From: an uncultured bacterium
Lineage (GTDB): Bacteria > Hydrothermota > Hydrothermia > UBA1063 > CAJXJZ01
Reading direction: 5' to 3'
Assembly (NCBI GenBank): GCA_913055745.1
Contig: CAJXJZ010000013.1
Span: forward strand, 1-40,794
Length of the DNA: 40,794 nt
Numbering within the stretch: the stretch's first letter is position 1; every line of letters begins with the position of its first letter. The notes below the pieces were generated by a model that was given only the letters and a program-made list of their open reading frames with translations, did no database searches and was not told the DNA's origin. Made by a program: the position numbers and the translations under genes. Positions 993 through 40,440 of this stretch are shown here, one piece after another.

Positions 993-1021
993 TTGATTAA
1001 ACACCTTTATACATATAAAAT
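993..1021 (+). promoter_or_regulatory. Promoter of the pyrB operon (leaderless start)
   Basis: TTGATT at 993-998 and TAAAAT at 1016-1021 are separated by 17 bp. The -10 box ends 7 nt before the pyrB ATG at 1029, and no Shine-Dalgarno sequence precedes that ATG. Transcription should therefore start at or next to the A of the start codon. The same arrangement recurs at six other gene starts in the window. Confidence 0.6.
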
Positions 1022-1028
1022 TTTATAG

Positions 1029-1979
1029 ATGCAAAAGGGAATAAAGCGTAAGGATCTATTGGGATTAAAAGAACTTGAGCGAGGGGAGATAGAGATTATC
1101 CTTGAAACGGCCTTTTCTATGAAGGAAGTGCTTAAAAGGCCCATAAAGAAAATACCTACTTTGAGGGGGAAAACAGTATGTTTTATGTTTTTTGAGCCTT
1201 CAACAAGAACAAGGAGTTCTTTTGAACTTGCAGCAAAAAGGCTGTCTGCTGATACTATAAATATTTCAGGAGTGGGTAGTGCCCTTCAAAAGGGAGAGAG
1301 CGTGCTTGACACCATGCTAAATATTAATGCTATGGGCATAGATGCTTTTGTTATAAGGCATGCGTCTTCAGGGCTTCCTTATTTTTTGGCAAGGCATACA
1401 GATACTGCTGTGATTAATGCTGGAGATGGAATGCATGAACATCCCACTCAGGCACTATTGGATATGATGACAATGAAGGAAAGATTTGGAAAACTTGAGG
1501 GTTTGCGGGTGCTTATTGCAGGGGATATAAGACACTCCCGAGTGGCTCGTTCTAATATTTATGGTCTTTTGAAGATGAGTGCAGAGGTTAGGCTATTTGG
1601 TCCACCTCCACTTGTACCTAAGGAGTTTGAACAATTCGGAGCAGAGGTTTTATATGATAAAAAGAAGGCACTCCGTAATGTTGATGTTATTATGGGACTT
1701 CGGATACAAAGAGAGAGACTTTTGGAGAGTTTCTTTCCAAGTATAAGGGAATACAGGAAGTTTTTTGCCATCACTCCTCAGGATATAGAAAATCTTTCTA
1801 AGGATGTTTTGATAATGCATCCAGGGCCTGTTAATTGGGGAGTGGAAATGGATTATGATATAATAAAACATAAAAACAATGTAATTTTAGAACAGGTGAC
1901 CAATGGCGTGGCAATAAGGATGTCTGTACTTTATCACTTTATAAGTGGGGAAAAATTGGATGAAGAGCATCTTAATTAA
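1029..1979 (+). CDS. pyrB: Aspartate carbamoyltransferase, catalytic chain
   Basis: Condenses carbamoyl phosphate with aspartate, the committed step of de novo pyrimidine synthesis. The carbamoyl-phosphate loop STRTR is at residues 58-62, followed by the HPTQALLDMMT block, GDIRHSRVARSN and MHPGPVNWGVE, all characteristic of the family. The length (316 aa) is normal for a bacterial catalytic chain. No regulatory chain (pyrI) is nearby. The ATG at 1029 has no Shine-Dalgarno sequence and lies 7 nt after a -10 box, so translation is probably leaderless. The end overlaps pyrC by 20 nt, as in organisms where ATCase and dihydroorotase are encoded together. It is the first gene of a nine-gene run reaching 9925. 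Confidence 0.97.
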   Translation: MQKGIKRKDLLGLKELERGEIEIILETAFSMKEVLKRPIKKIPTLRGKTVCFMFFEPSTRTRSSFELAAKRLSADTINISGVGSALQKGESVLDTMLNINAMGIDAFVIRHASSGLPYFLARHTDTAVINAGDGMHEHPTQALLDMMTMKERFGKLEGLRVLIAGDIRHSRVARSNIYGLLKMSAEVRLFGPPPLVPKEFEQFGAEVLYDKKKALRNVDVIMGLRIQRERLLESFFPSIREYRKFFAITPQDIENLSKDVLIMHPGPVNWGVEMDYDIIKHKNNVILEQVTNGVAIRMSVLYHFISGEKLDEEHLN

Positions 1980-10465: not shown

Positions 10466-10494
10466 ATTTTAAGGTATTAGATGCGAAAATAAAA
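10466..10494 (-). promoter_or_regulatory. Probable promoter of tRNA-Arg-tadA
   Basis: On the minus strand TAAAAT (10471-10466) lies 9 nt before the mature tRNA 5' end, giving a start two or three bases upstream of the tRNA. The -35 region at 17 bp (TTTTAT) is weak. A second, perfect TATAAT directly abuts the tRNA (10462-10457) but would initiate inside the mature tRNA. Confidence 0.4.
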
Positions 10495-10856: not shown

Positions 10857-10994
10857 TTAGTCTTCTTTTTCTTTATCTTTGCTTTTTTTCTTGATTTTAT
10901 TGAGTCTTATGAAGTTCGCGATGATCAAGATTGCCACAATGGACACAGGAACAAATATAACAACGAATAACATGGTATAATAAAAGCCCCGCAT
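10857..10994 (-). CDS. 45-aa single-pass membrane protein
   Basis: A short gene on the minus strand. Residues about 8-23 form one hydrophobic helix (MLFVVIFVPVSIVAIL), followed by a strongly charged tail that ends KDKEKED before TAA at 10859-10857. The ATG at 10994 is chosen because a TAAAAT -10 box (11006-11001) ends 6 nt upstream, the same leaderless geometry seen at six other starts; an inner ATG at 10973 has neither a ribosome site nor a well-placed -10 box. The topology suggests a small inner-membrane protein with a cytoplasmic tail. I do not recognise a family. Coding is supported by the clean hydrophobic-then-charged pattern and the promoter placement, not by homology. Confidence 0.6.
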   Translation of the reverse strand: MRGFYYTMLFVVIFVPVSIVAILIIANFIRLNKIKKKSKDKEKED

Positions 10995-11000
10995 ATGGAT

Positions 11001-11029
11001 ATTTTAAATGAACCAATGCGTTTAAAAAA
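11001..11029 (-). promoter_or_regulatory. Promoter of the 45-aa membrane protein (leaderless start)
   Basis: On the minus strand TAAAAT at 11006-11001 ends 6 nt before ATG (10994). The -35 region 17 bp upstream is only a T-tract, so the match is mainly in the -10 box. It is divergent from, and overlaps, the promoter of the 940-aa gene. Confidence 0.4.
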
Positions 11030-11050
11030 ACAAGGTATATGCTTTATAAT
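11021..11050 (+). promoter_or_regulatory. Promoter of the 940-aa transglutaminase-like gene
   Basis: TTTAAA (11021-11026), 18 bp, perfect TATAAT (11045-11050). The predicted start near 11057 leaves a short leader holding AGGAGG (11061-11066), 5 nt before the ATG at 11072. This is a conventional, non-leaderless start. Confidence 0.5.
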
Positions 11051-11071
11051 TAAAACAAAAAGGAGGGTATT

Positions 11072-13894
11072 ATGTTTTTAATATTTCTCTTATTTACAGC
11101 ATTAGAGACAAGAATAGATTCTGCTTTTATTTTTTCACTACCTGATGATACTGCAAAGGTTATATCACATGCATTAGCATATCCTGATAGCATGGTAAAA
11201 CTCCCGCTTTACGGTAGATGGATTAATAGATACCAAAATGATCTCATTGTCTTAAATGGAGATAGCATACTTTTTTACTCACCATATACATTTTGCATAG
11301 ACAGCACAATGAATTTGCCCTTTAGTGGCGTTAAAAGGGTTTATACGGATAAAAAAGGTAGAATAATACTTGTGAAGAACAAAAAATCTTTTTATTTAAA
11401 TGGTAAAGAAAGTAAAGTGCGCATTTTGCCCGATACAATTAATGTTGTGAACGGAAGAAAAGTTTCATACAGATACATCTCTCCTGTATTGTATGGGAAC
11501 TTAGTTTTTTATCTCAATGAACAAAATAGGGTGGTAATGAAAGTCCCTATTGAAACAACAGCAAAGACGCTTATGTTGAAAAGATACAACCAGTTGCCAT
11601 CATTCTTGGCATACGAGCAAGGCAAATACCTTGTTTATACCTATGATGGAAAACTTTACATAGGTGATACTATTTTAAAAGATGGACTCTTGCAAGGTAT
11701 TGCGAGAATGCGAAAGGATACGATTTTTATTAGCAATCTGAAGGATACGGATTCTGTTTGCGTGTTTTTATATCCAAAGATGGAATATAGAGGTAGAATA
11801 GGTTTTAGAAATTCACCATTTTCTGTGCTGCACTCAGACCTTGATGGAAATGTGTATTTTAAAGGCAAATGGATTTATAAGGATAAATACCTCGTATCAC
11901 CAAGTATGTATGACATTGATAATGATGGCAATAAAGAGATTATCTTGGGAAGGATGGATGGGAGTTTTGCTGTTTTGAAAAAATATAAGGATAGGTATCA
12001 AGAATATATGTCTCATGTACCATCATCTGATATTTATAAAAGATACTTTTCCATAGATGGCGTTCCTCTATTTTATATGACAACCCTTAAGAAAAGCCCA
12101 TTTGCCTCTGTGTTGGATACATTGAATCCTATGTACTATGATGAATACATTTATGTACTTGAACACGGCTCTCCTGAATTTTTAGATTCTCTAATAAAAG
12201 TTGGAATGGATTTTCTATATGAGAATATTTTTGATATTTATCTTGCTGCAAGGAGATTAAAGTATGTGGATTTATACGAACTTCCAGATGGTAGGACCAC
12301 ATTGATATTGAATAAAAAGGATACCATACCCCCTGATATGTATTACGAGTATGTTGTATTCCCACGCATTTTGTATGAGTTTCCCAAAAAGCCTCTTTTT
12401 AGAGAGTTTTTTATGAATGACAGGAGTTTTGGAAGGTCGGTGATAGAGGTGGTTGAAAAGGATACCACCGTAATGGATGCTGTAAGGTCATTCTATAAGT
12501 GGGCAAAGTCTTTTATGCATTTTGGATATATGACCAATGACTTAGATCCTGTTGTCATATACAAGAAGGCTTATGGGTCATGTGGAGAACATTCTATTTT
12601 GTCTGCTGCATTATTAAAAACCATTCTTATTCCTGCTTATGTTGCTGTGGATATGGGAGAGGACCATCAATGGAATGAGTTTTATAATGGTAAAAGATGG
12701 GTGCATTTTGATTTAACACAAGAGATAGAAAAGGCTTTGGACAATCCATTTGCATCCTCTGAAGGGCTTGGACATAAAGAGGTTTCTACTGTCGTTGGTG
12801 TATCACCCACGGGTAAGTATTTTCCCATTACATCCCATGGTTATACAAAAACCGGTAGAATATATGTAGATGTTGTAGATAGCATGGATAACCCTGTGCC
12901 TTATGCTCTTGTTGTAGTAAAAAGCCATTGGAACGGAAGAAACAGTGTTTCTATTTTTAAGTATACAGATGAAAACGGTAGGGCGTTTTTTGATATAGGG
13001 AGGGAGCGTTTGGGCTATAGCTTAGATGTTTACTCTCCCTACGGCAAAGGTGGGATAGGCAATTTTTATATAGATGAGGGAGATACAGTAAATCTACTTG
13101 TTAAGTTGCCCGATGCTGTTGCGCCTTGCAATAGAAGGAAGAATGCTAAGATGCTTGTTTTTGGAAGGAATTTTAGAACAGGAGAGACCGATATAATGTT
13201 AAAAAATGGTTTTATTTGCTCAAAAGGGAATAAAATATTTAACCCTATTTTGAATGCGATAGGCGTTTATGTTAAAGAGGATACACTCTTTATGGAGAGT
13301 AGGCCACCCCACTTGAATGTAAGTATAAAGGATACTGTTATTAAAAATGGTATGCCACTTGTTTGTAAGATAGATGCAAAGGATAATCTTGGAATAAAAC
13401 AGGTAAAGGCGATATTTTCTGGTAAGGTTAAGAGGGTGTTTAATCTAAATGTATTAAATGGCATGGATACGATTTTTGTGAATGAAGATACTGTTATGCC
13501 ACCGGGTGTTTATAAGGTTTTATTTCTGGCAGAGGATTTTTCCCATAATAAGAGCAAAGAAGAAAAGATAGTAGAGATTAAAAGTACGAGTGTTTTTAAA
13601 GACCAGTTAGTAAAACAAGATCCTATAGGAACAGACAATGGAAGTTGGAATGATGTAATCAAGATAAAAGATACCCTGCCTTTTATTTATATTGAAACAG
13701 ATGGGAAGAAAGAGCACATGGACATTGACCTCTTCCTGAAAAGGGATAAAAAGGTCATAAAGAAATCTACCTCGCCTACGGCTCATGAAACTATTTACCT
13801 TCATCCCTTATTACCTGGCACATATACTATTGTGGTTCAGGGATGGCATGTGCCACAGAACAAAGGCCTTTTTGATATAAAGGTAGTTTATTAG
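11072..13894 (+). CDS. Secreted multidomain transglutaminase-like protein
   Basis: A 940-aa protein with a short N-terminal signal-like helix. The first 320 residues are strand-rich and include an FG-GAP-like calcium loop (DIDNDGNKEI), suggesting a propeller. A transglutaminase-like cysteine core follows, with C504 (YGSCGEHS), H532 (EDHQWNEF) and D547 (VHFDLT) as an intact catalytic triad. Next comes a carboxypeptidase-regulatory-like beta domain (about 605-670, VPYALVVVKS then DENGRAFFDI), an Ig-like stretch, and a C-terminal segment resembling a bacterial pre-peptidase C-terminal domain (LHPLLPGTYTIVVQGW). It may act as a protease or cross-linker on extracellular proteins. It stands alone between its own promoter and a terminator-like hairpin. 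It lacks a recognisable T9SS sorting domain, unlike two other secreted proteins here. Confidence 0.8.
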   Translation: MFLIFLLFTALETRIDSAFIFSLPDDTAKVISHALAYPDSMVKLPLYGRWINRYQNDLIVLNGDSILFYSPYTFCIDSTMNLPFSGVKRVYTDKKGRIILVKNKKSFYLNGKESKVRILPDTINVVNGRKVSYRYISPVLYGNLVFYLNEQNRVVMKVPIETTAKTLMLKRYNQLPSFLAYEQGKYLVYTYDGKLYIGDTILKDGLLQGIARMRKDTIFISNLKDTDSVCVFLYPKMEYRGRIGFRNSPFSVLHSDLDGNVYFKGKWIYKDKYLVSPSMYDIDNDGNKEIILGRMDGSFAVLKKYKDRYQEYMSHVPSSDIYKRYFSIDGVPLFYMTTLKKSPFASVLDTLNPMYYDEYIYVLEHGSPEFLDSLIKVGMDFLYENIFDIYLAARRLKYVDLYELPDGRTTLILNKKDTIPPDMYYEYVVFPRILYEFPKKPLFREFFMNDRSFGRSVIEVVEKDTTVMDAVRSFYKWAKSFMHFGYMTNDLDPVVIYKKAYGSCGEHSILSAALLKTILIPAYVAVDMGEDHQWNEFYNGKRWVHFDLTQEIEKALDNPFASSEGLGHKEVSTVVGVSPTGKYFPITSHGYTKTGRIYVDVVDSMDNPVPYALVVVKSHWNGRNSVSIFKYTDENGRAFFDIGRERLGYSLDVYSPYGKGGIGNFYIDEGDTVNLLVKLPDAVAPCNRRKNAKMLVFGRNFRTGETDIMLKNGFICSKGNKIFNPILNAIGVYVKEDTLFMESRPPHLNVSIKDTVIKNGMPLVCKIDAKDNLGIKQVKAIFSGKVKRVFNLNVLNGMDTIFVNEDTVMPPGVYKVLFLAEDFSHNKSKEEKIVEIKSTSVFKDQLVKQDPIGTDNGSWNDVIKIKDTLPFIYIETDGKKEHMDIDLFLKRDKKVIKKSTSPTAHETIYLHPLLPGTYTIVVQGWHVPQNKGLFDIKVVY

Positions 13895-19405: not shown

Positions 19406-21471
19406 TTCTTACCTCCCTTTTTTTCAAGAACTATTGGAGCAGATACAAAGTTTTTAAATCCCAAGAGGGCATTTCTGAAGTCTTTATAATCTTTTGTTGG
19501 AATATATCTTCCAAAACGTTTGTAGGTATCTGTGTAGATTATTGTATTATCATCCTCTTTTTGATATTTACCCCTTACTATCCAAAGTGATGCAGAGTCA
19601 TAGTATTCTTTCGGCAAGGCCAGTATATTAAAATTGGATGGGATATGTATTCTATATGTGTCTGTGATCATTTCAGAAGTACTAAATCTCAAAGGATATG
19701 TTCTCTTTGATAGTGAAATATAATCAAAATCAAATCGCCCTTTTATTTCAGGAAGATTGAATAGATAGAACTTGCCTTCTTTTCCCATATAAGAAGGTAC
19801 AGTGGCATAGTAAAGAATATGAAAGGGCTTTGATATGTCGCTGGTGTTTATAAGTTTAAATGAATCTAATACAGCATCTGGCTTTATTTGTGCAACCATA
19901 GACATAAGTCTGAGTTTGCGCTCATCTTCTCTTACATAGTTCCAATAATACTTAAGTGAAGCCTCATAATCGCCTGTATAGGAAGAGTAGAACTTGAGTT
20001 TCATATCCCCTGTGGGGTTTATATTTATATCGTATGTATAAATCCGTGCAAAGTCCTCTGGCGGTGGGACCTCAATAAAGTAAATAGAATCTTTTTGGGC
20101 ACATATTGCCCATACTCCATGGTCGGCACTCCAAAAATAGGGATATCTGCTCCATCTGCCAGTTGCATCCAAAAACCTATAACTTCCGTCTGGATAAAAC
20201 ACCTGTGTTATTGCATGATTCCCATAATATGATGGTATTTCTTTAACGAGCATAGGACCATCGTTTGTTCTTATATACACAGGGTATGCTTCAATGCCTA
20301 CCGCCTTTAAAAGGGTTGAAAATAGAATAGATTTATCTGTACAATCTCCATATCCGTTTTTTAAGGTCTCCCATGCAGGATGTCCAGACACTCCAGATGC
20401 AGCAGCCCCTTTTATTGAGATATATCTTATGTTCTGTTGAACCCAATAATATATCCTTGCAATCTTGTCATCTATGGATTGGGTATTTTTTGTAATGCTC
20501 TCTGCAAGATTTTTTATAGTATCGGTGACAGTCATCCTTTTCTTTTGAAAATCCGAGTACCAATGAAATATATAAGACCAATCTTTTTGATTTGATCCTA
20601 CAAGTTTTGGAACAATGTCCAACATTGCGGGCATAAGTGGTTCTTTTAAAAATGCCGGGATATTATGCGCTTCAGCATCTATGATTCTTTTGCCATTTTC
20701 CCTATTCTCTTTTACTGTTATATCAAATGTATCTGTGTGAATAAGGAGTTTTTTAAAGAAAGAGGTATCAGGTAATACTATCCTGTAATGGGAGTAGTAA
20801 ACAGGGTCAAAACCGCCAAAGTTCCAACTGGCTGTAAATATATTCTTGTTCCAGGGGCTGTAGATGTCGTACATGACGGCATATTCTACGATATCTCCAA
20901 CCTCTGCTTGTGGAAGGGTAAAACTCACAGTATAGCCTTTATCAAAAAATTCAAGGCCTTCTGTGGGTTTTATGATCTTAACTTCATTTGGAGCAAGATT
21001 TATTACCTCTTTGCTTTTCTTGATGGTCCTCGCGAGGATTATCTTAAAGTGTTCGCTCTCTGGTGAATATCCCAACTGTAATTTAGCGATCTCTTTTCCT
21101 TCAGGCTTCAAGATCACGCCAGCAAAGTGATAAACAAATACCCTTGTCCCATCATTTTTAAGTCTTATGTATCCTTCATCAAGTAATGTTATGGTTTTCT
21201 CGTTTTTAAATACCGAAAGTGCACTATCTTTTAAAGAAATAAGGTATTCTGGTGAGGTCTTTCTGTATCCTTCTATTTTAATTTCTCCTTTTTTGGTGAA
21301 CATTATCCGTTTTACATCATCCTTATTCAAGGTGCAGGTGTCTAATTTAAATTTTCCCTTCTTATATTCTATACGGTTAGATATGATTCTTTTTGCATTC
21401 TGGGTTTCAATCTCCACAGCCCAGAGTGGATAAGCCAAAGATAATAGTATAAGTATATTAAACCATCTCAT
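19402..21471 (-). CDS. DUF3857/transglutaminase-like secreted protein, triad intact
   Basis: A 689-aa secreted protein with a signal peptide (residues 1-18, ending LAYPLWA). It has a DUF3857 domain, then a transglutaminase-like core with C377 (YGDCTDKS), H419 (GNHAITQ) and D435 (RFLDATG), and a C-terminal beta domain with a transglutaminase-associated look. Proteins of this type are common in FCB bacteria; their role is uncertain, probably proteolysis or cross-linking in the envelope. It is the first gene of a four-gene operon. GGAGG (21484-21480) lies 8 nt before the ATG, and a promoter lies 21 nt further up. Confidence 0.87.
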   Translation of the reverse strand: MRWFNILILLSLAYPLWAVEIETQNAKRIISNRIEYKKGKFKLDTCTLNKDDVKRIMFTKKGEIKIEGYRKTSPEYLISLKDSALSVFKNEKTITLLDEGYIRLKNDGTRVFVYHFAGVILKPEGKEIAKLQLGYSPESEHFKIILARTIKKSKEVINLAPNEVKIIKPTEGLEFFDKGYTVSFTLPQAEVGDIVEYAVMYDIYSPWNKNIFTASWNFGGFDPVYYSHYRIVLPDTSFFKKLLIHTDTFDITVKENRENGKRIIDAEAHNIPAFLKEPLMPAMLDIVPKLVGSNQKDWSYIFHWYSDFQKKRMTVTDTIKNLAESITKNTQSIDDKIARIYYWVQQNIRYISIKGAAASGVSGHPAWETLKNGYGDCTDKSILFSTLLKAVGIEAYPVYIRTNDGPMLVKEIPSYYGNHAITQVFYPDGSYRFLDATGRWSRYPYFWSADHGVWAICAQKDSIYFIEVPPPEDFARIYTYDININPTGDMKLKFYSSYTGDYEASLKYYWNYVREDERKLRLMSMVAQIKPDAVLDSFKLINTSDISKPFHILYYATVPSYMGKEGKFYLFNLPEIKGRFDFDYISLSKRTYPLRFSTSEMITDTYRIHIPSNFNILALPKEYYDSASLWIVRGKYQKEDDNTIIYTDTYKRFGRYIPTKDYKDFRNALLGFKNFVSAPIVLEKKGGKK

Positions 21472-21498
21472 ACAGCATGCCTCCTTTGTTTAACTCAT

Positions 21499-21527
21499 AT
21501 TTTAACACGCACCTTAGAATTGTTCAA
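21499..21527 (-). promoter_or_regulatory. Promoter of the DUF3857-tsaD operon
   Basis: On the minus strand TTGAAC (21527-21522), 17 bp, TAAAAT (21504-21499). The predicted start near 21492 gives a leader of about 20 nt that carries the GGAGG site. It is divergent from the DUF948 promoter. Confidence 0.6.
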
Positions 21528-21541
21528 ATTCTACCTATTAC

Positions 21542-21570
21542 TTGATGATACCTTTTCAATGCCTTATAAC
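21542..21570 (+). promoter_or_regulatory. Promoter of the DUF948-YtxH-gap operon (leaderless start)
   Basis: TTGATG (21542-21547), 17 bp, TATAAC (21565-21570). The -10 box ends 7 nt before ATG at 21578. The upstream in-frame TTG at 21542 is itself the -35 box, which argues against it as a start codon. Confidence 0.55.
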
Positions 21571-21577
21571 TATTGAC

Positions 21578-21901
21578 ATGACATATCTAATTGTGAGCAT
21601 CTATGTGTTATTGATTTTACTCCTGCTGGTTTCTATTATATTTTTTATCCACCTGTTAGGTTTACTCAAAAAAGCCGAAAAGACTCTATCTCAACTTGAT
21701 GATACACTTCTTAGTTTGAACAGTGACCTTCCTGTTATCCTTGAAAATGTAAAGGAGGCGTCAGAGGAGGCGAAAGAAGCGTCAAAGATGGCAAGAATTG
21801 CAACAAAAAAAGCAAAAGATGGTCTAATGTGGCTTGATTTTGCGAAAAACATCGTAGGTATGTTCTTGAAATTTAAGAAAAAGGAGGACAAATATGAGTG
21901 A
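21578..21901 (+). CDS. DUF948-like membrane-anchored coiled-coil protein
   Basis: A 107-aa protein with one N-terminal membrane helix (residues about 3-26, VSIYVLLILLLLVSIIFF) followed by a heptad-rich Ala/Glu/Lys stretch and a short hydrophobic C-terminal helix. This is the pattern of DUF948 (PF06103) proteins. The start is placed at the ATG at 21578 rather than TTG 21542 or ATG 21545, because those overlap the predicted -35 box and because the -10 box lies 7 nt before 21578. The next gene is YtxH-like, and DUF948 and YtxH genes often sit together, so a joint envelope or stress role is likely. It overlaps the YtxH gene by 8 nt. Confidence 0.75.
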   Translation: MTYLIVSIYVLLILLLLVSIIFFIHLLGLLKKAEKTLSQLDDTLLSLNSDLPVILENVKEASEEAKEASKMARIATKKAKDGLMWLDFAKNIVGMFLKFKKKEDKYE

Positions 21902-25638: not shown

Positions 25639-26534
25639 AGGGCATTGAAAAAAGAGTAATAGCACTATTTTCAGGTGGTCTTGATAGTATTCTTGCTATA
25701 AGGCTAATGGAGAGGGCAGGTTTTGAAGTAATACCACTTTTTATTTACACACCTTTTCTGTCAAAAAAAATGCCTCTTGAGATAAGGGAGGATTTTAAAA
25801 GGTATGGGGAGAGTTTCAAAGATAGGGTAATAATTCATGAAACAGGCGATGATTATCTTGAACTTGTTGAAAAGCCAAAGTATGGGTATGGTAAGAACCT
25901 AAATCCATGTATTGATTGCAAGATATTCTTTTTAAAGATTGCAAAAAGTTATATGGAAAATCTTGGTGCTCGGTATGTTGTAACCGGTGAGGTTCTTGGA
26001 CAGAGAGGGATGTCACAGAGAAAGGATGCTATCTTAAAGATAGAGAAAGAGAGTGGACTTAGGGGCAAGATAGTGCGTCCACTTTCTCTTTCATCTTTTC
26101 CTAAAACAGAACTTGAAGAAAAGGGCATCTTAGATGCATCGCTCTTTCCTTCTATAAAGGGAAGGAGTAGAGCATTACAGATAGAACTTGCAAAGAGGTT
26201 GGGCATTGAAAATTATCCACAACCCTCAGGTGGTTGTCTTTTGACTGATCCTGGCTTTTCCAAAAGAGTTCGTGTTCTCATAAGGGAACATCTCTTTGAG
26301 ACGGGGTATATTCATGCGGTAAAGTTTGGTAGGTTAGTTTTAGAAGATGGGATATATGTTGTTGCAAGGAATGACATTGAGAATAAAAAACTCCTTTCTT
26401 TATCAAGTAAGTATCAGATAAACCTTTTTATACCAAGATTTAAAGGCCCAGTAGTTGCAATACTAAAAGGTGATTACGAAAAGGCAAAGATGCTCTCCTG
26501 TAGGTACACAAGGCACTGCCCATTTAATATTTGA
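25632..26534 (+). CDS. ThiI-like PP-loop ATP pyrophosphatase (tRNA thiolation-type)
   Basis: A 300-aa PP-loop enzyme that adenylates its substrate. The pyrophosphate loop is SGGLDS (residues about 15-20). The NPCIDCK block, TGEVLGQRGMSQRKDA and YPQPSGGCLLTDP (with a conserved Cys) define a family usually annotated as tRNA 4-thiouridine synthase-like, and the C-terminal part resembles an NFACT-R RNA-binding domain. It lacks the ferredoxin-like and THUMP domains of classical ThiI. The most likely role is sulfur transfer to tRNA, using the conserved cysteines, but the target base is not known. It overlaps the broken PAP2 gene by 7 nt and is followed by the pyrG promoter. Confidence 0.78.
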   Translation: MVKGIEKRVIALFSGGLDSILAIRLMERAGFEVIPLFIYTPFLSKKMPLEIREDFKRYGESFKDRVIIHETGDDYLELVEKPKYGYGKNLNPCIDCKIFFLKIAKSYMENLGARYVVTGEVLGQRGMSQRKDAILKIEKESGLRGKIVRPLSLSSFPKTELEEKGILDASLFPSIKGRSRALQIELAKRLGIENYPQPSGGCLLTDPGFSKRVRVLIREHLFETGYIHAVKFGRLVLEDGIYVVARNDIENKKLLSLSSKYQINLFIPRFKGPVVAILKGDYEKAKMLSCRYTRHCPFNI

Positions 26535-26559
26535 CCATCTTTGTCAGAGTCTTTAAAAT
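26531..26559 (+). promoter_or_regulatory. Promoter of the pyrG operon (leaderless start)
   Basis: TTGACC (26531-26536), 17 bp, TAAAAT (26554-26559). Both boxes match consensus at five of six positions. The -10 box ends 6 nt before the GTG start at 26566, so the transcript should begin with the start codon itself. The -35 box overlaps the stop region of the ThiI-like gene. Confidence 0.7.
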
Positions 26560-26565
26560 TTAAAA

Positions 26566-28170
26566 GTGAGTAAATTCATTTTTATAACTGGTGGTGTTGT
26601 ATCAGCCCTTGGTAAAGGGGTTGCTACAGCGTCAATAGGTTTTTTGTTAAAGAGAAGAGGGTACAATGTAGTACCTCTTAAGTTTGATCCATATCTTAAT
26701 GTAGACCCAGGGACAATGAGCCCATTTCAGCATGGGGAGGTCTTTGTCACAGATGATGGTGCAGAGACAGACCTTGACCTTGGACATTATGAGAGATTCC
26801 TTGATATTTCTCTTTCGCGAAAGAATAATGTTACAGCAGGTCAGGTTTATTACACTATAATTGAGAACGAGCGAGAAGGAAAATATCTCGGTAAAACGGT
26901 TCAGGTGGTTCCACACCTGACTGATGAGATCAAGCGGAGGGTGCTTTTACTTGAAGAGGATGGTGCAGACATTGTTCTTGTTGAAATAGGTGGTACAGTG
27001 GGAGATATAGAGTCTTTGCCATTCCTTGAGGCAGCAAGACAACTCCGTTTAGAACGTGGACCATCGGATGTCCTTTTTATACATTTGACACTTGTTCCCT
27101 ATCTTAAGTCAGCGGGTGAATTAAAAACAAAGCCTACACAGCATAGTGTAATGAAACTTCGTGAAATTGGGCTTCAGCCTGATATACTTATATCGCGTTC
27201 TGAAAAAAGATTGACTGATGAGGTTAGAAAAAAGATAGCACTGTTTTCAAATCTACCAGAAAAGCACGTAATTGAAGCACAGGATGTTGACTTTATTTAT
27301 AAAATACCCATTGTGTTTTACAACCAGGGGTTGGATAAATTAATACTTGAAAGGCTAAATCTCGCTGTTATGCCTATAAAAATGGATGATTGGATAGATT
27401 TTATAAGTAATTATGAACAGAGGAAGGATGAGGTTAACCTATGCATTACAGGGAAATATGTTGGACTTAAAGATTCTTATAAGAGCATTATAGAGGCACT
27501 CAGTCACGCACAGAGTTCTACGAGGACAAAGGTTAATATAAAATTTATTGATGCTGAAGAAATTGAAGAGAAATCCCCTTCTCTTATTCTCTCTGATTGT
27601 GACGGCATACTTGTTCCCGGTGGGTTTGGCAAAAGGGGTATAGAAGGTAAAATAAAGGCTATTCAGTATGCAAGGGAGAGTGGACTTCCATTTTTCGGCA
27701 TATGTCTTGGCATGCAACTTGCCACTTTGGAGTTTGCAAGAAATATAGCGGGACTAAAGAACGCCCATTCAACAGAGTTTGATCCTGACACACCGTATCC
27801 TGTAATAACCATTTTACCTGATAAAGCCAATATCAAACGCTTAGGTGGTACACTTAGAAAGGGTGCATATATTGCTCAACTTAAGGAAAATACCCTTGCT
27901 CACAGAATTTATGGAAAAATAGAGATTTCAGAGAGGCACAGACATAGATATGAATTTAATCCTGAATTTATGGACATACTTGAAGAAAAGGGTCTTGTTT
28001 TTTCAGGTATTTCTAAATCAGGAGAATATGTGGAAGTAATAGAACTTAACAATCATCCATTCTTTATTGGCGTACAGTTTCACCCAGAGTTTAAATCAAG
28101 GCCACTCTCTCCCCATCCTATATTTGTTAAATTTGTGGAGGCCATGAGGGTGTATAGATATGGCTATTGA
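26566..28170 (+). CDS. pyrG: CTP synthase
   Basis: Converts UTP to CTP using glutamine. The N-terminal synthase domain begins FIFITGGVVSALGKG, a P-loop-like signature, followed by DPYLNVDPGTMSPFQHGEVF and GGTVGDIES. The C-terminal class I glutaminase has its nucleophile in GICLGMQLA and the catalytic His in GVQFHPEF. The length of 534 aa is typical. The start is GTG with no Shine-Dalgarno sequence, 6 nt after a -10 box, so translation is predicted to be leaderless. It is the first gene of a five-gene run to 34766, and its last 11 nt overlap the next gene. Confidence 0.97.
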   Translation: MSKFIFITGGVVSALGKGVATASIGFLLKRRGYNVVPLKFDPYLNVDPGTMSPFQHGEVFVTDDGAETDLDLGHYERFLDISLSRKNNVTAGQVYYTIIENEREGKYLGKTVQVVPHLTDEIKRRVLLLEEDGADIVLVEIGGTVGDIESLPFLEAARQLRLERGPSDVLFIHLTLVPYLKSAGELKTKPTQHSVMKLREIGLQPDILISRSEKRLTDEVRKKIALFSNLPEKHVIEAQDVDFIYKIPIVFYNQGLDKLILERLNLAVMPIKMDDWIDFISNYEQRKDEVNLCITGKYVGLKDSYKSIIEALSHAQSSTRTKVNIKFIDAEEIEEKSPSLILSDCDGILVPGGFGKRGIEGKIKAIQYARESGLPFFGICLGMQLATLEFARNIAGLKNAHSTEFDPDTPYPVITILPDKANIKRLGGTLRKGAYIAQLKENTLAHRIYGKIEISERHRHRYEFNPEFMDILEEKGLVFSGISKSGEYVEVIELNNHPFFIGVQFHPEFKSRPLSPHPIFVKFVEAMRVYRYGY

Positions 28171-34777: not shown

Positions 34778-37156
34778 GTTTAATGCACCATCCTTAGCAT
34801 CTACTATAACCTTACTCCCTTTCTTTATATCTCCTTTTATGATGCCCTTTGCAATTTCATTAACCACTTCCCTTTGAATGACCCTCTTAAGTGGCCTTGC
34901 TCCAAATTCCTTTGAGTATCCCTTCTCTGCAAGATAAGAAAGTCCTGCATCTGTTACCTCAAATCCTATGCCTTTTTCTTTTAGGTTCTCTACAAGTTCC
35001 AAAAGTTCCAGTTTAACAATCTCTTTGATCTCTTTGATCCCAAGGGGTGAAAAGAGTACGATTTCATCTATCCTATTTATAAACTCTGGCCTGAAGTATC
35101 GTAAAAGTTCAGGCATTACCTTATTAATCTTTTCTTCTCTTTTCCCTGTGAGGGTTGGTATCACGGATGATGCTATATTACTTGTCATTATTATAACGGT
35201 GTTTTTGAAGTCCACTGTTCTACCGTGAGAGTCTGTGAGCCTTCCAGAATCAAAAATCTGAAGCATTAAATTGAATACATCTGGATGTGCCTTTTCAATT
35301 TCGTCAAAAAGAATAACCTGATATGGCCTTCTTCTTACCGCTTCTGTTAGTGTGCCACCTTTTTCATATCCAACATACCCAGGAGGTGCACCAATGAGTT
35401 TTGATACAGCATGTCTTTCCATATATTCAGACATATCAAACCGTAGTAGTGCATCCTCATCGTCAAACAAGAACCACGCAAGTTGCCTTGCAAGATGAGT
35501 TTTACCAACCCCTGTCGGACCCATGAACAAAAATACACCAATAGGCTTTTTCAAGGAAACAAGGCCTGCCCTGTGTCTTCTTATAGCATCGGATACAACC
35601 TGAATAGCCTCATCCTGACCTATTACCCGCTTTTTCAGTATCTCCTCCATACGAAGGAGTTTGTCTCTTTCTGATTGTAAGAGAGCATCTTGTGGAATGC
35701 CTGTCCATTTAGATACAATTTCCGCAATATCCCGTTCTCTTACAACCTCATCCACGCCGCTTTTTTCTTGCCATTCCTTTAATTTTCTCTGATACTCAGG
35801 CATTATCCTGTCAAGTTCCTCTTTAAGTTTACGTGCCCTTTCATAATCGCCATACTCTGTGCTTATTCTCCCTTCTTCTGTGAGTGTTTCCACTTGTTCT
35901 TTGAGTTTCTTCAAATCTTCGGGCATTTTTGAGAGTTTTATTTTTTTGTTGCTACATGCCTCATCTAAGAGGTCAATGGCCTTATCTGGCAGTTTCCTAC
36001 CCTGTATATACCTTTCTGAGAGTTTTGCTGCAGCATAGAGTGCGTCATCTTCTATTTTGACCTTGTGGTGCTCTTCATAACGCTTCTTGAGGCCTTTTAA
36101 GATCTCGTACGTCTCTTCTACAGTTGGCTCTCTTACAAATACTGTCTGAAACCTTCTCTCAAGAGCGCCGTCCTTTTCAATATGCTCTCTATATTCATCT
36201 AAGGTGGTTGCACCAATCAGTCTGAGTTCTCCAGATGCAAGTGCTGGCTTTAAGAGGTTTGCTGCGTCCTGCGCGCCCTCTGCCGCACCAGCACCAACAA
36301 TAGTATGAAGTTCGTCCACAAACAAGATAACATTATTGCGCTTCTTGATCTCATCAATGATCCCTTTTAGCCGTTCTTCAAACTCTCCTCTAAATTTTGT
36401 ACCAGCAATGAGATGGCCCATAGAAAGGGATAGGATTCTTTTATCTTTCAAATCATCAGGAACGTCCTTTTTCACTATTCTTTGTGCAAGACCCATTACA
36501 ATGGCTGTTTTGCCAACACCTGGTTCACCAATTAGAACAGGATTATTTTTGGTTTTACGAAGTAATATTTGCACCACTCTTTCAATCTCTTCTTCCCTTC
36601 CAATAACAGGGTCAAGCCTGCCCATCTCTGCGAGTTTCGTAATGTCTTCTGTGTATTTTTCCAATGGACTATAGGATTTTTCAGCATCCGGATTTTCTAC
36701 CCTTTTTGTTCCTCTTATCTCATAAAGGGATTTAAAAACACCTTCCCTGTCAATCCCAAATTCCTTAAAGAGTTTAAAAAGTTCACCCTTTGCTTCCTCA
36801 ATGAGTGCAAGTAGGATGTGTTCAGAGGCCACGTACTCATCTTTCATCATCTCTCTTTCTCTATCCGCCCTTTCTAAAACAGATAAGGCGTCTTGAGAGA
36901 GAAAGACCTGATATGTTGAACCTTGTGAGTATTCTACCTCTGGAAATCTCCTCAGGATGTCTAAGAGACGGTTTTTAATGACAGATGGATTTTTACCCAT
37001 TTTGCTTAATATCTGTGATGTTATACTGTCTTTCACCTCAAGCAAACCATAAAAAAGATGTTCTGGCTCAATTTGATTGTGCTTGAATTTTCTTAAAGAT
37101 TCCTCTGCAATTAAAATTGCCTCTTTTGCGCCTTCAGTAAACTTATCCATTCTCAT
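34763..37156 (-). CDS. clpC: ClpC-type AAA+ unfoldase lacking a ClpP-docking loop
   Basis: A 797-aa Hsp100 protein with a Clp N-domain (residues about 1-145), two AAA+ modules with Walker A at about 210-217 (GEPGVGKT) and near 535 (GPTGVGKT), and a short middle domain with a UVR motif ([16 protein letters not shown]) typical of ClpC rather than ClpB. The segment between MTSNI and [10 protein letters not shown], where ClpA, ClpC and ClpX carry an [LIV]-G-[FL] tripeptide for ClpP, reads [15 protein letters not shown] and has no such tripeptide. It may therefore act as a disaggregase or remodelling ATPase without ClpP. GGAGG lies 8 nt before the ATG. TTGACC at 37227-37222 may be its -35 box, but no good -10 follows. 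Confidence 0.9.
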
Positions 37157-37237
37157 TTTTTTCTCCTCCTTTTTTATTCTTTTATTTTTAAGTACTATTT
37201 AGTAATAATTTTAATTCGTAGGGTCAAGAGTTTGTTT

Positions 37238-37265
37238 TTGTAAGCCGTGTTATGGGATATATAAT
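37238..37265 (+). promoter_or_regulatory. Promoter of the LptF/LptG gene (leaderless start)
   Basis: TTGTAA (37238-37243), 16 bp, perfect TATAAT (37260-37265). The -10 box ends 7 nt before ATG at 37273. The in-frame ATG at 37252 lies upstream of the -10 box and so cannot be in the transcript. Confidence 0.55.
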
Positions 37266-37272
37266 TTTACTT

Positions 37273-38346
37273 ATGAAAAAATTAGAGTGGTATATACTTA
37301 GAAGGTTTTTGTTTTTTTTGACACTTTTCACTATTGGTGCTATATTTATTTTTATTGTTGTTAATTTTTTTGAAAGGATAGACCATTTTGTATCAAATAA
37401 AGCAAGTATTATTTCTATATTGAGGTTTTATGTTTTTCAATTAGGATATATCTTTAACCTCATGTTTCCTGTAGCACATCTTCTTGCCCTTTTCTTGTCT
37501 CTTGGCGAACTATCTGCAAAGAATGAGATTCTTGCTATTAGGGCTGGTGGTATAAGTTTGAAAAGGGTCTTTTTACCGCTTTTGGTTTTTGCCCTGTTTT
37601 CATCACTTTTAGACCTTTTTGTGGCAGAGTTTTTCGGTTATCCTGGCTATAATAAGGCAGAGAGGGTTATGAGGGTTGAGATAGAGAAGAGAAAGCCTAT
37701 CTTTGGAAGAATAAGTGGTGAAGACATAAGTTTTTTTTGGAAAAATAATCTCTATTTTTTTGGTTATATCAATAGATTGAGAAATACTGCAAGCAGAATT
37801 ACTATCTTTGAGTTTAAAAAAGATACGATTGTAAGGATGATTGATGCAAGGTCCGGGACCTTTAATGGAAGGTTTTGGGTACTAAGGGATGGGACAGAAC
37901 GCATAATAGGAAAGAAGGATACACTTATATTCTTTAGAAAAAGGGCCTTTCCTGAGTTTACCATAACGCCTTTTGAGTTTCTTAAAAAAAGGAGTAGGCT
38001 TATATACACACCAGCAAAAGAATTAAAAAAATTGATAGATAAAAAGAAAAAGGCAGGTCTTGATTATACGGCAGAACTTGCAGAGTATATATCACGATTC
38101 TCGTTTCCATTTTCATGTTTTGTAATGTTATTTTTTAGCATACCACTTGCTTCATCATCACGCTGGAAGGGAAGGTCAACCATGTTTGGCATTGCACTTT
38201 CTTTGGCATTTTTATACTGGGGCATGTTTCAGGGTATAAAACTGGCAGGTTCCTTGGGAAAAATTAACCCGTATTTAGCAGGTCATCTTACGAATCTCAT
38301 ATTCTTTATCCCTTCTCTTTATATGTATCTTAAGATTGACGATTGA
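37273..38346 (+). CDS. LptF/LptG-family permease (lipopolysaccharide export)
   Basis: Inner-membrane component of the LptB2FG transporter that extracts lipopolysaccharide and feeds it to the periplasmic bridge. The 357-aa protein begins MKKLEWYILRRFLFF, the family's usual N-terminus, has three N-terminal membrane helices, a periplasmic jellyroll-like beta region (about 120-250) and three C-terminal helices, with FPVAHL and LSLGELSAKNEILAIRAGG between helices 2 and 3. LptF and LptG cannot be told apart here; the usual second gene is not adjacent. The start is set at 37273 by the promoter position and the family N-terminus. It converges with lpxK, with a 17-nt overlap. Confidence 0.9.
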   Translation: MKKLEWYILRRFLFFLTLFTIGAIFIFIVVNFFERIDHFVSNKASIISILRFYVFQLGYIFNLMFPVAHLLALFLSLGELSAKNEILAIRAGGISLKRVFLPLLVFALFSSLLDLFVAEFFGYPGYNKAERVMRVEIEKRKPIFGRISGEDISFFWKNNLYFFGYINRLRNTASRITIFEFKKDTIVRMIDARSGTFNGRFWVLRDGTERIIGKKDTLIFFRKRAFPEFTITPFEFLKKRSRLIYTPAKELKKLIDKKKKAGLDYTAELAEYISRFSFPFSCFVMLFFSIPLASSSRWKGRSTMFGIALSLAFLYWGMFQGIKLAGSLGKINPYLAGHLTNLIFFIPSLYMYLKIDD

Positions 38347-39268
38347 GTATATTGTCCAAGGTTTTAAAAAAATCATTCTCTTTTCTTATCTGAAGGGATA
38401 TCTTGAGATAGAGCATAGATTTTCTATATTTTTCTGGGATCCTGTAAAAATCCTTTTCTGTTGTTATAACAGGAAGGTTTTCTTTCAATATATGTTCAAG
38501 GAATTTTTCAGAAAAATAGGAATGGTCTCTATAAAAGATGTGTTTTTTTACATCTATGCCCATTTTATCCCTTACTACATTTAAAAATTCCCTGTTTTTT
38601 GCTATAGCAGATATAAGTATTGCCTTTTTTATGCCATCTATTTTGTTATCTTTAAAATCAAATAATCCGTCAATTTTATACCCAGCAGAAAAGGTTTTTT
38701 TACCCATAAAGTCTGTAACATTCTGGATGTTGCAGAACCTAAAGTTTACAATTACTATATGGGCTCTTTTTATATGGGATACAGGCTCTCTGAGCATCCC
38801 AAATGGAAAAACATACCCTTTATGTTTATAGAGTTTTTCACTCATTATTACGATGTCAATATCGCGGTGTAATCTATAATACTGAAACCCATCATCAAGA
38901 ATTAGAACAGTATCAGGCAGAAGGTTTAAACTTAAAACATCTTCCCTTTTTTTATTAACATATACACGAACGCCGGTATTTTTATAAATCATAAAGGGCT
39001 CATCACCACACTCATAAGCAGAAAGATGCCCATCTGTTATGCATGGAGTTTTAAATTTTCTCTTGTATCCACGGGAAAGGACCGTCACAGGATGGGTTTT
39101 CTTAAGATATTTTGCTATCTTTATAACAAGTGGTGATTTTCCTGTACCTCCCATTTCAATATTCCCTACTGAGATAACAGGAAATGGAAGATGGATTTTA
39201 CGCAAAAAGTGCCTTTTTAATTCCACCATCCAGAGATATGGCGAGAGAAATGAGACGAAATCCTTCAC
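38330..39268 (-). CDS. lpxK: Tetraacyldisaccharide 4'-kinase
   Basis: Phosphorylates the 4' position of the lipid A disaccharide, so its presence shows that the organism makes lipid A. The Walker A motif is SVGNIEMGGTGKSP (residues about 33-46), followed by LSRGYKRK and the Walker B-like LILDDGFQYYRL. The length of 312 aa is typical. The start is GTG at 39268: a TATAAT -10 box (39280-39275) ends 6 nt upstream and no Shine-Dalgarno sequence is present, so a leaderless start is likely. It converges with the LptF/G gene and diverges from the DUF763 gene, 86 bp apart. Confidence 0.93.
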   Translation of the reverse strand: MKDFVSFLSPYLWMVELKRHFLRKIHLPFPVISVGNIEMGGTGKSPLVIKIAKYLKKTHPVTVLSRGYKRKFKTPCITDGHLSAYECGDEPFMIYKNTGVRVYVNKKREDVLSLNLLPDTVLILDDGFQYYRLHRDIDIVIMSEKLYKHKGYVFPFGMLREPVSHIKRAHIVIVNFRFCNIQNVTDFMGKKTFSAGYKIDGLFDFKDNKIDGIKKAILISAIAKNREFLNVVRDKMGIDVKKHIFYRDHSYFSEKFLEHILKENLPVITTEKDFYRIPEKYRKSMLYLKISLQIRKENDFFKTLDNILNRQS

Positions 39269-39274
39269 ACATAG

Positions 39275-39303
39275 ATTATAAATGAAAAAAGAAGAAATAA
39301 GAA
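39275..39303 (-). promoter_or_regulatory. Promoter of lpxK (leaderless start)
   Basis: On the minus strand a perfect TATAAT (39280-39275) ends 6 nt before the GTG start codon. The -35 region 17 bp upstream (TTCTTA, 39303-39298) is a weak match. Confidence 0.5.
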
Positions 39304-39319
39304 GACATTATTTTCGAAG

Positions 39320-39348
39320 TTTTTTATACTTGTTTTTTACCTCATAAT
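39320..39348 (+). promoter_or_regulatory. Promoter of the DUF763 gene (leaderless start)
   Basis: CATAAT (39343-39348) ends 6 nt before ATG at 39355, with no Shine-Dalgarno sequence between. The -35 position at 17 bp is a T-tract (39320-39325) and gives little support. Confidence 0.4.
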
Positions 39349-39354
39349 AATCTT

Positions 39355-40440
39355 ATGCGAACAGGATATACCACGCTACCTTTACATGGAGGTCATGCTC
39401 CAAGATGGCTATTTGAGAGGATGGCAAAACTCGCAGGGAGTATAACAGAGGCAATAGTCATTGAATTTGGAACAAAGGAGTTTTTAAAAAGGGTGTCAGA
39501 CCCTGTATGGTTTCAATCACTTGGATGTGTTCTTGGCTTTGATTGGCATTCTTCAGGACTCACCACCACAACCACAGGCGCCATAAAAGAAGGGATTAAA
39601 AATAAGATGTTTGAACTTGGTATTTTTGTCGCAGGGGGAAAAGGAAAGACTTCTTTAAAAACACCAGAGGAGATAAGAAAAATAGGTGATATTACAGGCA
39701 TTTCTCCAGAACCTCTTGTGTTGGCATCAAAGGCATCTGCCAAAACAGATGCTGTACTCTTACAGGATGGCTATAACATTTATCATCATACATTCTTTTT
39801 TGATAGGTGTGGCAATTGGGCAGTGGTGCAGCAGGGTATGAATGAGAGAAAACGCAAAGCAAGGAGGTATCACTGGCTTTCGGGAGTATTTGAGCGATTT
39901 GACGAAGAACCACATACAGGAATAATTGCCCCACAGAAGGAGAAAATGGTAATTGATCTTACATCCCGAAGGTCAAGGGAAAACAAAAATAGGATTGTTG
40001 AAATCCTTAAAAATGAATCTCCCAATAAGGTAGTTTTAGAGTATAAAAGGGCCATTAAAAGCCTAAGTCTTCCCTTAAGGCATTACATTGTGCCATATAA
40101 AGATATAAGCGAAAAGTATCTCTTTAAGATTTTAAAGACCACTTATGACAGAGGTTTTGAAGGATTTGAAGATTTTTACCTCATAAGAGGAGTGGGCCCT
40201 TCCACTGTAAGGGCACTTTCAATGCTTGCTGATGTAGTGTTTGGTGCAAAGCCCAGTTTTGAAGACCCTGTGGTTTATTCCTATGCTCATGGAGGAAAGG
40301 ATGGCTTTCCATATCCTGTAAATAGAAATGTTTATGATAATAGTATCAATGTGATGGAAAATGCTATAAAAAAGGCAAAGATAGGGAAAAAAGAGGAACT
40401 TCTGGCACTTTGGAGGCTTTCAAAGGTTTTCAATAGTTGA
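39355..40440 (+). CDS. DUF763-family protein
   Basis: A 361-aa protein of the DUF763 family, which is known mainly from archaea and thermophilic bacteria and whose function I do not know. Typical segments are TGYTTLPLHGGHAPRWLF at the N-terminus, a conserved FGTKEFLKRVSDPVWFQ block, LGFDWHSSGLTTT, and YHHTFFFD followed by WAVVQQGM. The sequence YLIRGVGPSTVRALSML near residue 278 looks like a helix-hairpin-helix, so DNA or RNA binding is possible. No signal peptide is present. The gene stands alone behind its own promoter. The ATG at 39355 is supported by the -10 box 6 nt upstream. Confidence 0.85.
   Translation: MRTGYTTLPLHGGHAPRWLFERMAKLAGSITEAIVIEFGTKEFLKRVSDPVWFQSLGCVLGFDWHSSGLTTTTTGAIKEGIKNKMFELGIFVAGGKGKTSLKTPEEIRKIGDITGISPEPLVLASKASAKTDAVLLQDGYNIYHHTFFFDRCGNWAVVQQGMNERKRKARRYHWLSGVFERFDEEPHTGIIAPQKEKMVIDLTSRRSRENKNRIVEILKNESPNKVVLEYKRAIKSLSLPLRHYIVPYKDISEKYLFKILKTTYDRGFEGFEDFYLIRGVGPSTVRALSMLADVVFGAKPSFEDPVVYSYAHGGKDGFPYPVNRNVYDNSINVMENAIKKAKIGKKEELLALWRLSKVFNS

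Follow-up and report, generated by a model that had tools for sequence, protein, structure and literature searches.

Housekeeping-type promoters placed at the start codon predict leaderless expression beside Shine-Dalgarno-led expression in the genome of an uncultured bacterium

Analysis of a 40,794-nucleotide window, contig 13 of a 1.79 Mb draft genome (window GC content 37%), and of sampled stretches of the same genome and its relatives indicated that housekeeping-sigma promoters are very probably placed at the start codon itself, so that promoter position would set two start modes, one leaderless and one led by a Shine-Dalgarno (SD) site. The promoters would be of the ordinary housekeeping-sigma type, with TTGAnn, a spacer of about 17 bp and a TATAAT-like −10 box. 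Counted 7 nt from the final T of that box, the canonical start of transcription would fall on the start codon or within about 3 nt of it. The mRNAs would then be leaderless, and their translation would therefore have to proceed without an SD interaction. Initiation at the 5′ AUG or GUG would presumably be by 70S ribosomes or assisted by IF2, as it is on leaderless mRNAs in other bacteria. The remaining units would begin with leaders of 14–24 nt carrying an SD site, and operon interiors use SD sites.

The first-pass annotation of the window had described seven genes with a −10 hexamer 6 or 7 nt before the start codon, and its hexamers, gaps and start codons were all correctly placed (Table 1). 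The absence of SD sites that it reported was also found: with an SD core defined as GGAG, GAGG or AGGA at −18 to −4, none of the seven genes carried one. As it had further claimed, TTGAnn was present at exactly 17 bp for three genes (pyrB, the 107-aa protein gene and pyrG); the −35 regions of the other four sites were T-rich. Scored with a promoter profile from whose training the window had been left out, the seven sites gave 9.2–14.2 bits, and all were among the only 24 of 81,508 window positions, counted on both strands, that reached 9 bits or more. The DUF948 label given to the 107-aa protein was unsupported, because Pfam returned no such match.

Table 1. Promoter elements and genes in the window, ordered by position. 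Gaps are counted from the −10 box to the start codon; G001–G003 are congeners.
Feature	Positions	Strand	Details
pyrB −35 box TTGATT	993..998	+	17 bp from −10 box; TTGATTA kept in 3 congeners
pyrB −10 box TAAAAT	1016..1021	+	7 nt before ATG 1029; 11.8 bits; TATAAT, same gap, in G001–G003
pyrB, predicted leaderless	1029..1979	+	ATG 1029; Pfam OTCace_N/OTCace
tRNA-Arg promoter −10 box	10466..10471	−	C at −26
45-aa protein gene, predicted leaderless	10857..10994	−	G001 ortholog 62% identity; no Pfam family
−10 box TAAAAT, 45-aa membrane protein gene	11001..11006	−	6 nt before ATG 10994; 13.0 bits; kept in G001
Contrast: −10 box TATAAT of SD-led unit	11045..11050	+	GGAGG before ATG 11072; gap 21; 15.1 bits
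Contrast: −10 box TAAAAT of SD-led unit	21499..21504	−	AAAGGAGG; gap 27; ATG 21471; 12.3 bits; kept in G001
−35 box TTGATG, 107-aa protein gene	21542..21547	+	17 bp spacer
−10 box TATAAC, 107-aa protein gene	21565..21570	+	7 nt before ATG 21578; 12.0 bits; kept in G001
107-aa protein gene, predicted leaderless	21578..21901	+	G001 ortholog 54% identity; no Pfam match
pyrG −35 box TTGACC	26531..26536	+	TTGACCATCT identical in 4 genomes of the genus
pyrG −10 box TAAAAT	26554..26559	+	6 nt before GTG 26566; 14.2 bits; TCTTTAAAATTTA identical in 4 genomes of the genus
pyrG (CTP synthase), predicted leaderless	26566..28170	+	GTG start; Pfam CTP_synth_N
lptF/G −10 box TATAAT	37260..37265	+	7 nt before ATG 37273; 13.0 bits; kept at 6–7 nt in G001–G003
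lptF/lptG, predicted leaderless	37273..38346	+	Pfam LptF_LptG
lpxK, predicted leaderless	38330..39268	−	GTG start; Pfam LpxK
lpxK −10 box TATAAT	39275..39280	−	6 nt before GTG 39268; 11.3 bits
DUF763 gene −10 box CATAAT	39343..39348	+	6 nt before ATG 39355; 9.2 bits, weakest of seven
DUF763 gene, predicted leaderless	39355..40440	+	Pfam DUF763

Two of these genes called for closer attention to their surroundings. The pyrG gene had been presented as the first of its unit; it does have a promoter of its own, but its unit-leading position is unclear, with a same-strand ThiI-like gene ending 31 nt upstream, from which pyrG may additionally be read through. The stop codon of that gene and the pyrG −35 box overlap, so that promoter and coding sequence share bases. 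The LptF/G frame contains another in-frame ATG at 37252, but this lies upstream of the −10 box, and the congeners have a GTG start at the position equivalent to 37273. The window also holds four back-to-back divergent pairs with closely packed promoters (10994–11072, 21471–21578, 37156–37273 and 39268–39355). At least two of the four pair one leaderless with one SD-led gene, and in the lpxK/DUF763 pair both genes are predicted to be leaderless.

If the layout were a general one, the first-pass annotation had reasoned, distances from −10 motifs to SD-less unit-leading starts would show a sharp peak genome-wide. Such a peak was found in sampled stretches amounting to 829 kb, or 46% of the genome. 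Genes were called from coding statistics with a home-made caller whose choice of start was blind to upstream signals, and divergent genes were used since these must lead a unit. Of 71 SD-less divergent genes, 33 (46%) had a TANNNT motif ending 6–7 nt ahead of the start codon; the same count in 200 dinucleotide shuffles was 6.5 ± 2.3, with a maximum of 14, and no SD-bearing divergent gene had the motif there (0/43). Within the same upstream regions, 9.6% of non-start ATG or GTG codons were preceded by TANNNT at 6–7 nt, as were 4.0% of gene-internal ATGs. Boxes picked solely for TANNNT at 6–7 nt had a −35 element in register (T92 T80 G48 at −35 to −33). For genes lying close behind a same-strand gene, and hence operon-internal, no −10 peak was found in the 829 kb sample; SD was present in 53% of them.

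A promoter profile was then built on unit-leading genes, and the gap was measured from the −10 box to the first in-frame start. The distribution in the 829 kb sample was bimodal. Gaps of 6–9 nt were found for 74 promoters, two of them with SD, and gaps of 20–30 nt for 63, of which 57 had SD; between them, at 10–19 nt, lay only 10. A further 19 had gaps of 31–60 nt (15 with SD), and only four were below 6 nt. Within the shorter class, 54 of the 74 gaps were exactly 6 or 7 nt, with 7 at 8 nt and 13 at 9 nt. Reading frame gave a control: in a related count at 6–9 nt, 62 starts were in the correct frame vs 3 and 6 in the wrong frames. The bimodality implies that a leader is missing altogether or has just the length needed to accommodate an SD site, and the SD-less peak at 6–9 nt and the SD-bearing peak at 20–30 nt bear out the two initiation modes proposed at first pass. 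The leaderless class comprised 74 of 189 detected promoters, a share of about 39% that refers to detectable promoters and not to all genes. SD-led leaders in this genome were short and uniform, at about 14–24 nt, and leaders of about 4–13 nt were rare.

The layout was retained among relatives. All seven boxes recurred at 6–8 nt in every congener for which an ortholog was found, despite sequence drift. Four genomes of the genus had TTGACCATCT...TCTTTAAAATTTA immediately ahead of the pyrG start, with variable flanks and spacer. In two congeners (G002 and G003) the lpxK start lay three codons further in, and the box was again 6 nt before it. For the DUF763 gene, each of the six relatives checked, spanning two families, had an equivalent box with a gap of 6 nt. 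In a sister family in which pyrB and pyrG lie inside operons, the −10 box was gone, and pyrB had an SD site instead. Among 23 ortholog pairs between the genome of the window (G000) and congener G001 in which each member could be assigned to the leaderless or the SD-led class, mode agreed in 20, with 8 leaderless in both and 12 SD-led in both; three switched class, and some of these switches seem to reflect start-codon artefacts or wrongly paired orthologs.

Gap bimodality and SD exclusion were also seen in G001, G005, G020 and G015, which together with G000 represent four families of one class. By the same counting, none of 51 unit-leading genes in Escherichia coli had TANNNT at 6–8 nt; a looser profile gave 3 of 25 weak sites at 6–9 nt, indicating a small false rate. 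The positive control, megaplasmid MP1 of Deinococcus radiodurans, had 7 boxes at 6–9 nt among 31 SD-less unit-leading genes. In a PyrG tree the class stood apart from all named phyla sampled. In at least four families of this uncultured class, leaderless expression seems to be an established and conserved mode, cleanly split from short-leader SD-led units. Preferred −35/−10 spacing differed between families, being 18 bp in family f10 (G020, 33/54) and 17 bp in G000 (109/147).

Alignment of promoters on the −10 box showed a further conserved position. The base at −26 was C in 78% of promoters in the leaderless class and in 69% of those in the SD-led class, against a background of 15%. When boxes were re-chosen without that region, the composition at −26 was C71 T24 in G000, C59 T32 in G001 and C51 T40 in G005; the same held-out test gave A56 in G020 and no −26 signal in G015. 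The position was fixed relative to the −10 box, with C in 72, 72 and 67% of promoters at spacers of 16, 17 and 18 bp, respectively. It was present ahead of stable RNA genes as well: of 20 tRNA promoters in G000, 18 had C at −26, one had T and one, at the weakest box, had G (binomial p about 2 × 10−13), and the 16S promoter had C. Elsewhere in the order, C stood at −26 in 11 of 12 tRNA promoters, vs 2 of 11 in G015. Six of the seven window sites had C (for pyrB at 1002, plus strand), and pyrG had T at 26540. In our sample, where the other families of the class are thinly represented, the −26 pyrimidine was limited to this order, and it was absent from the two other families that were sampled well enough. 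At −22 to −18, the positions of the Z-element, no held-out conservation above 0.1 bit was found in G000.

The −26 pyrimidine may serve as an extra core promoter contact in this order. We consider the chances about even that nearly all housekeeping promoters of the order (those of leaderless mRNA, SD-led mRNA, tRNA and rRNA) share an undescribed core element: a pyrimidine at −26, with C preferred, whose position is tied to the −10 box and which the RNA polymerase holoenzyme, or a constant partner of it, would recognize directly. As to its cause, the β′ N-terminus showed nothing that obviously separated genomes with and without the element, and neither did sigma regions 2–4 in a comparison of three genomes. 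Tentatively, no −26 promoter element appears to have been reported; a limited literature search, which could not query '−26', returned only the Z-element. If the polymerase does contact this base directly, the core promoter would have gained a lineage-specific component, and promoters of this order would be predictable with unusual accuracy.

Other explanations for the seven sites were weighed against start-codon promoters. TANNNT is common in AT-rich upstream regions, and in a genome of 37% GC the boxes could in principle arise by chance; the probability of this is negligible, given that shuffles, wrong frames, gene-internal ATGs (4.0%) and non-start ATG or GTG codons (9.6%) all fell far below the observed 46%, and that the boxes are conserved in congeners. 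The hexamers occupy the usual position of an SD site, and might instead be a signal for translation, like the unstructured or A-rich non-SD regions of Bacteroidota. This is extremely improbable, since −35 TTG and the −26 pyrimidine stand in fixed register with the hexamers and the same composite precedes tRNA and 16S rRNA genes. Initiation of the SD-independent Bacteroidota type, which goes with an SD-poor genome, was rejected, as 57 of the 63 promoters at 20–30 nt carry SD. Misread start codons were also tested as the cause of the pattern and rejected.

Two further alternatives accept the promoters as real and concern the transcripts. Most mRNA might come from upstream promoters with longer leaders, and both the location of pyrG, 31 nt behind a same-strand gene, and a second candidate site for pyrB (8.5 bits, gap 54) would fit. 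We regard this as very unlikely: SD is almost absent from genes of the leaderless class (2/74), no second site scoring above 2 bits lies within 55 nt of the other six window genes, and congeners keep the layout. The mRNAs could otherwise carry leaders of 1–5 nt and not be strictly leaderless, with nearly the same function. Gaps of 8 and 9 nt do exist (7 and 13 of 74), but 54 of 74 gaps are exactly 6 or 7 nt and almost none are shorter than 6, as would follow if the transcript had to begin just early enough to include the start codon, and short leaders are accordingly the less probable reading, though one with some weight. Within the preferred reading, that of promoters placed at the start codon, transcription may start exactly on the first base of that codon, the 6–9 nt spread allowing 0–3 leader bases.

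The translation machinery showed no sign of a loss of SD initiation in anti-SD, IF3 or S1. The anti-SD CCTCC is intact, because the 16S tail ends GGATCACCTCCTTT; IF3 is present, as is a 581-codon frame with six S1 domains. The coexistence of leaderless and SD-led modes in the genome is, at the level of sequence, well supported. The predicted leaderless mRNAs are likely to be translated, pyrG and lpxK being essential-type genes. In such genomes, gene finders built to expect SD sites will place starts wrongly; here, 15 of the 74 leaderless starts differed from, and were missed by, the blind coding-only call.

The leaderless layout by itself is already known from Actinobacteria and Deinococcus-Thermus. 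An in silico survey found leaderless genes in 207 of 953 bacterial genomes (PMC3160421), and a GeneMarkS-2 survey built on representative genomes places 21.6% of bacterial species in a class predicted to be leaderless for up to 40% of transcripts (quoted in PMC9581028). Engagement of leaderless mRNA by 70S ribosomes or with assistance from IF2 is the route expected from work on other bacteria (PMC9031893). In Deinococcus-Thermus the leaderless mark is a −10 box 6–7 bp before the ORF (PMC12340547), and the genes described here resemble its TA-led genes, with TANNNT 6–7 bp before the ORF beside an SD motif class (PMC12340547; PMC3160421). The motif is found there in about 30–46% of genes, whereas the figure of about 39% here is of detectable promoters, not all genes. 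Unlike in Deinococcus-Thermus, the box here is a fuller TAWAAT, with a clear −35 element and the −26 pyrimidine.

Among Mycobacterium tuberculosis genes whose primary start has been mapped, about a quarter are leaderless, and SD-led genes exist alongside them (PMC3898074). Leaderless genes in that organism were shown by TSS mapping, whereas those here are predicted from sequence; its other leaders have a median of 55 nt, whereas SD-led leaders here are uniform at about 14–24 nt. The closest counterpart of the −26 pyrimidine is the Z-element, a spacer element at −22 to −18 read by RNAP β′ (PMC10911233). Both are sequence-specific positions inside the −35/−10 spacer; unlike the Z-element, the signal in this order is a single pyrimidine at −26, outside −22 to −18, shared by mRNA, tRNA and rRNA promoters.
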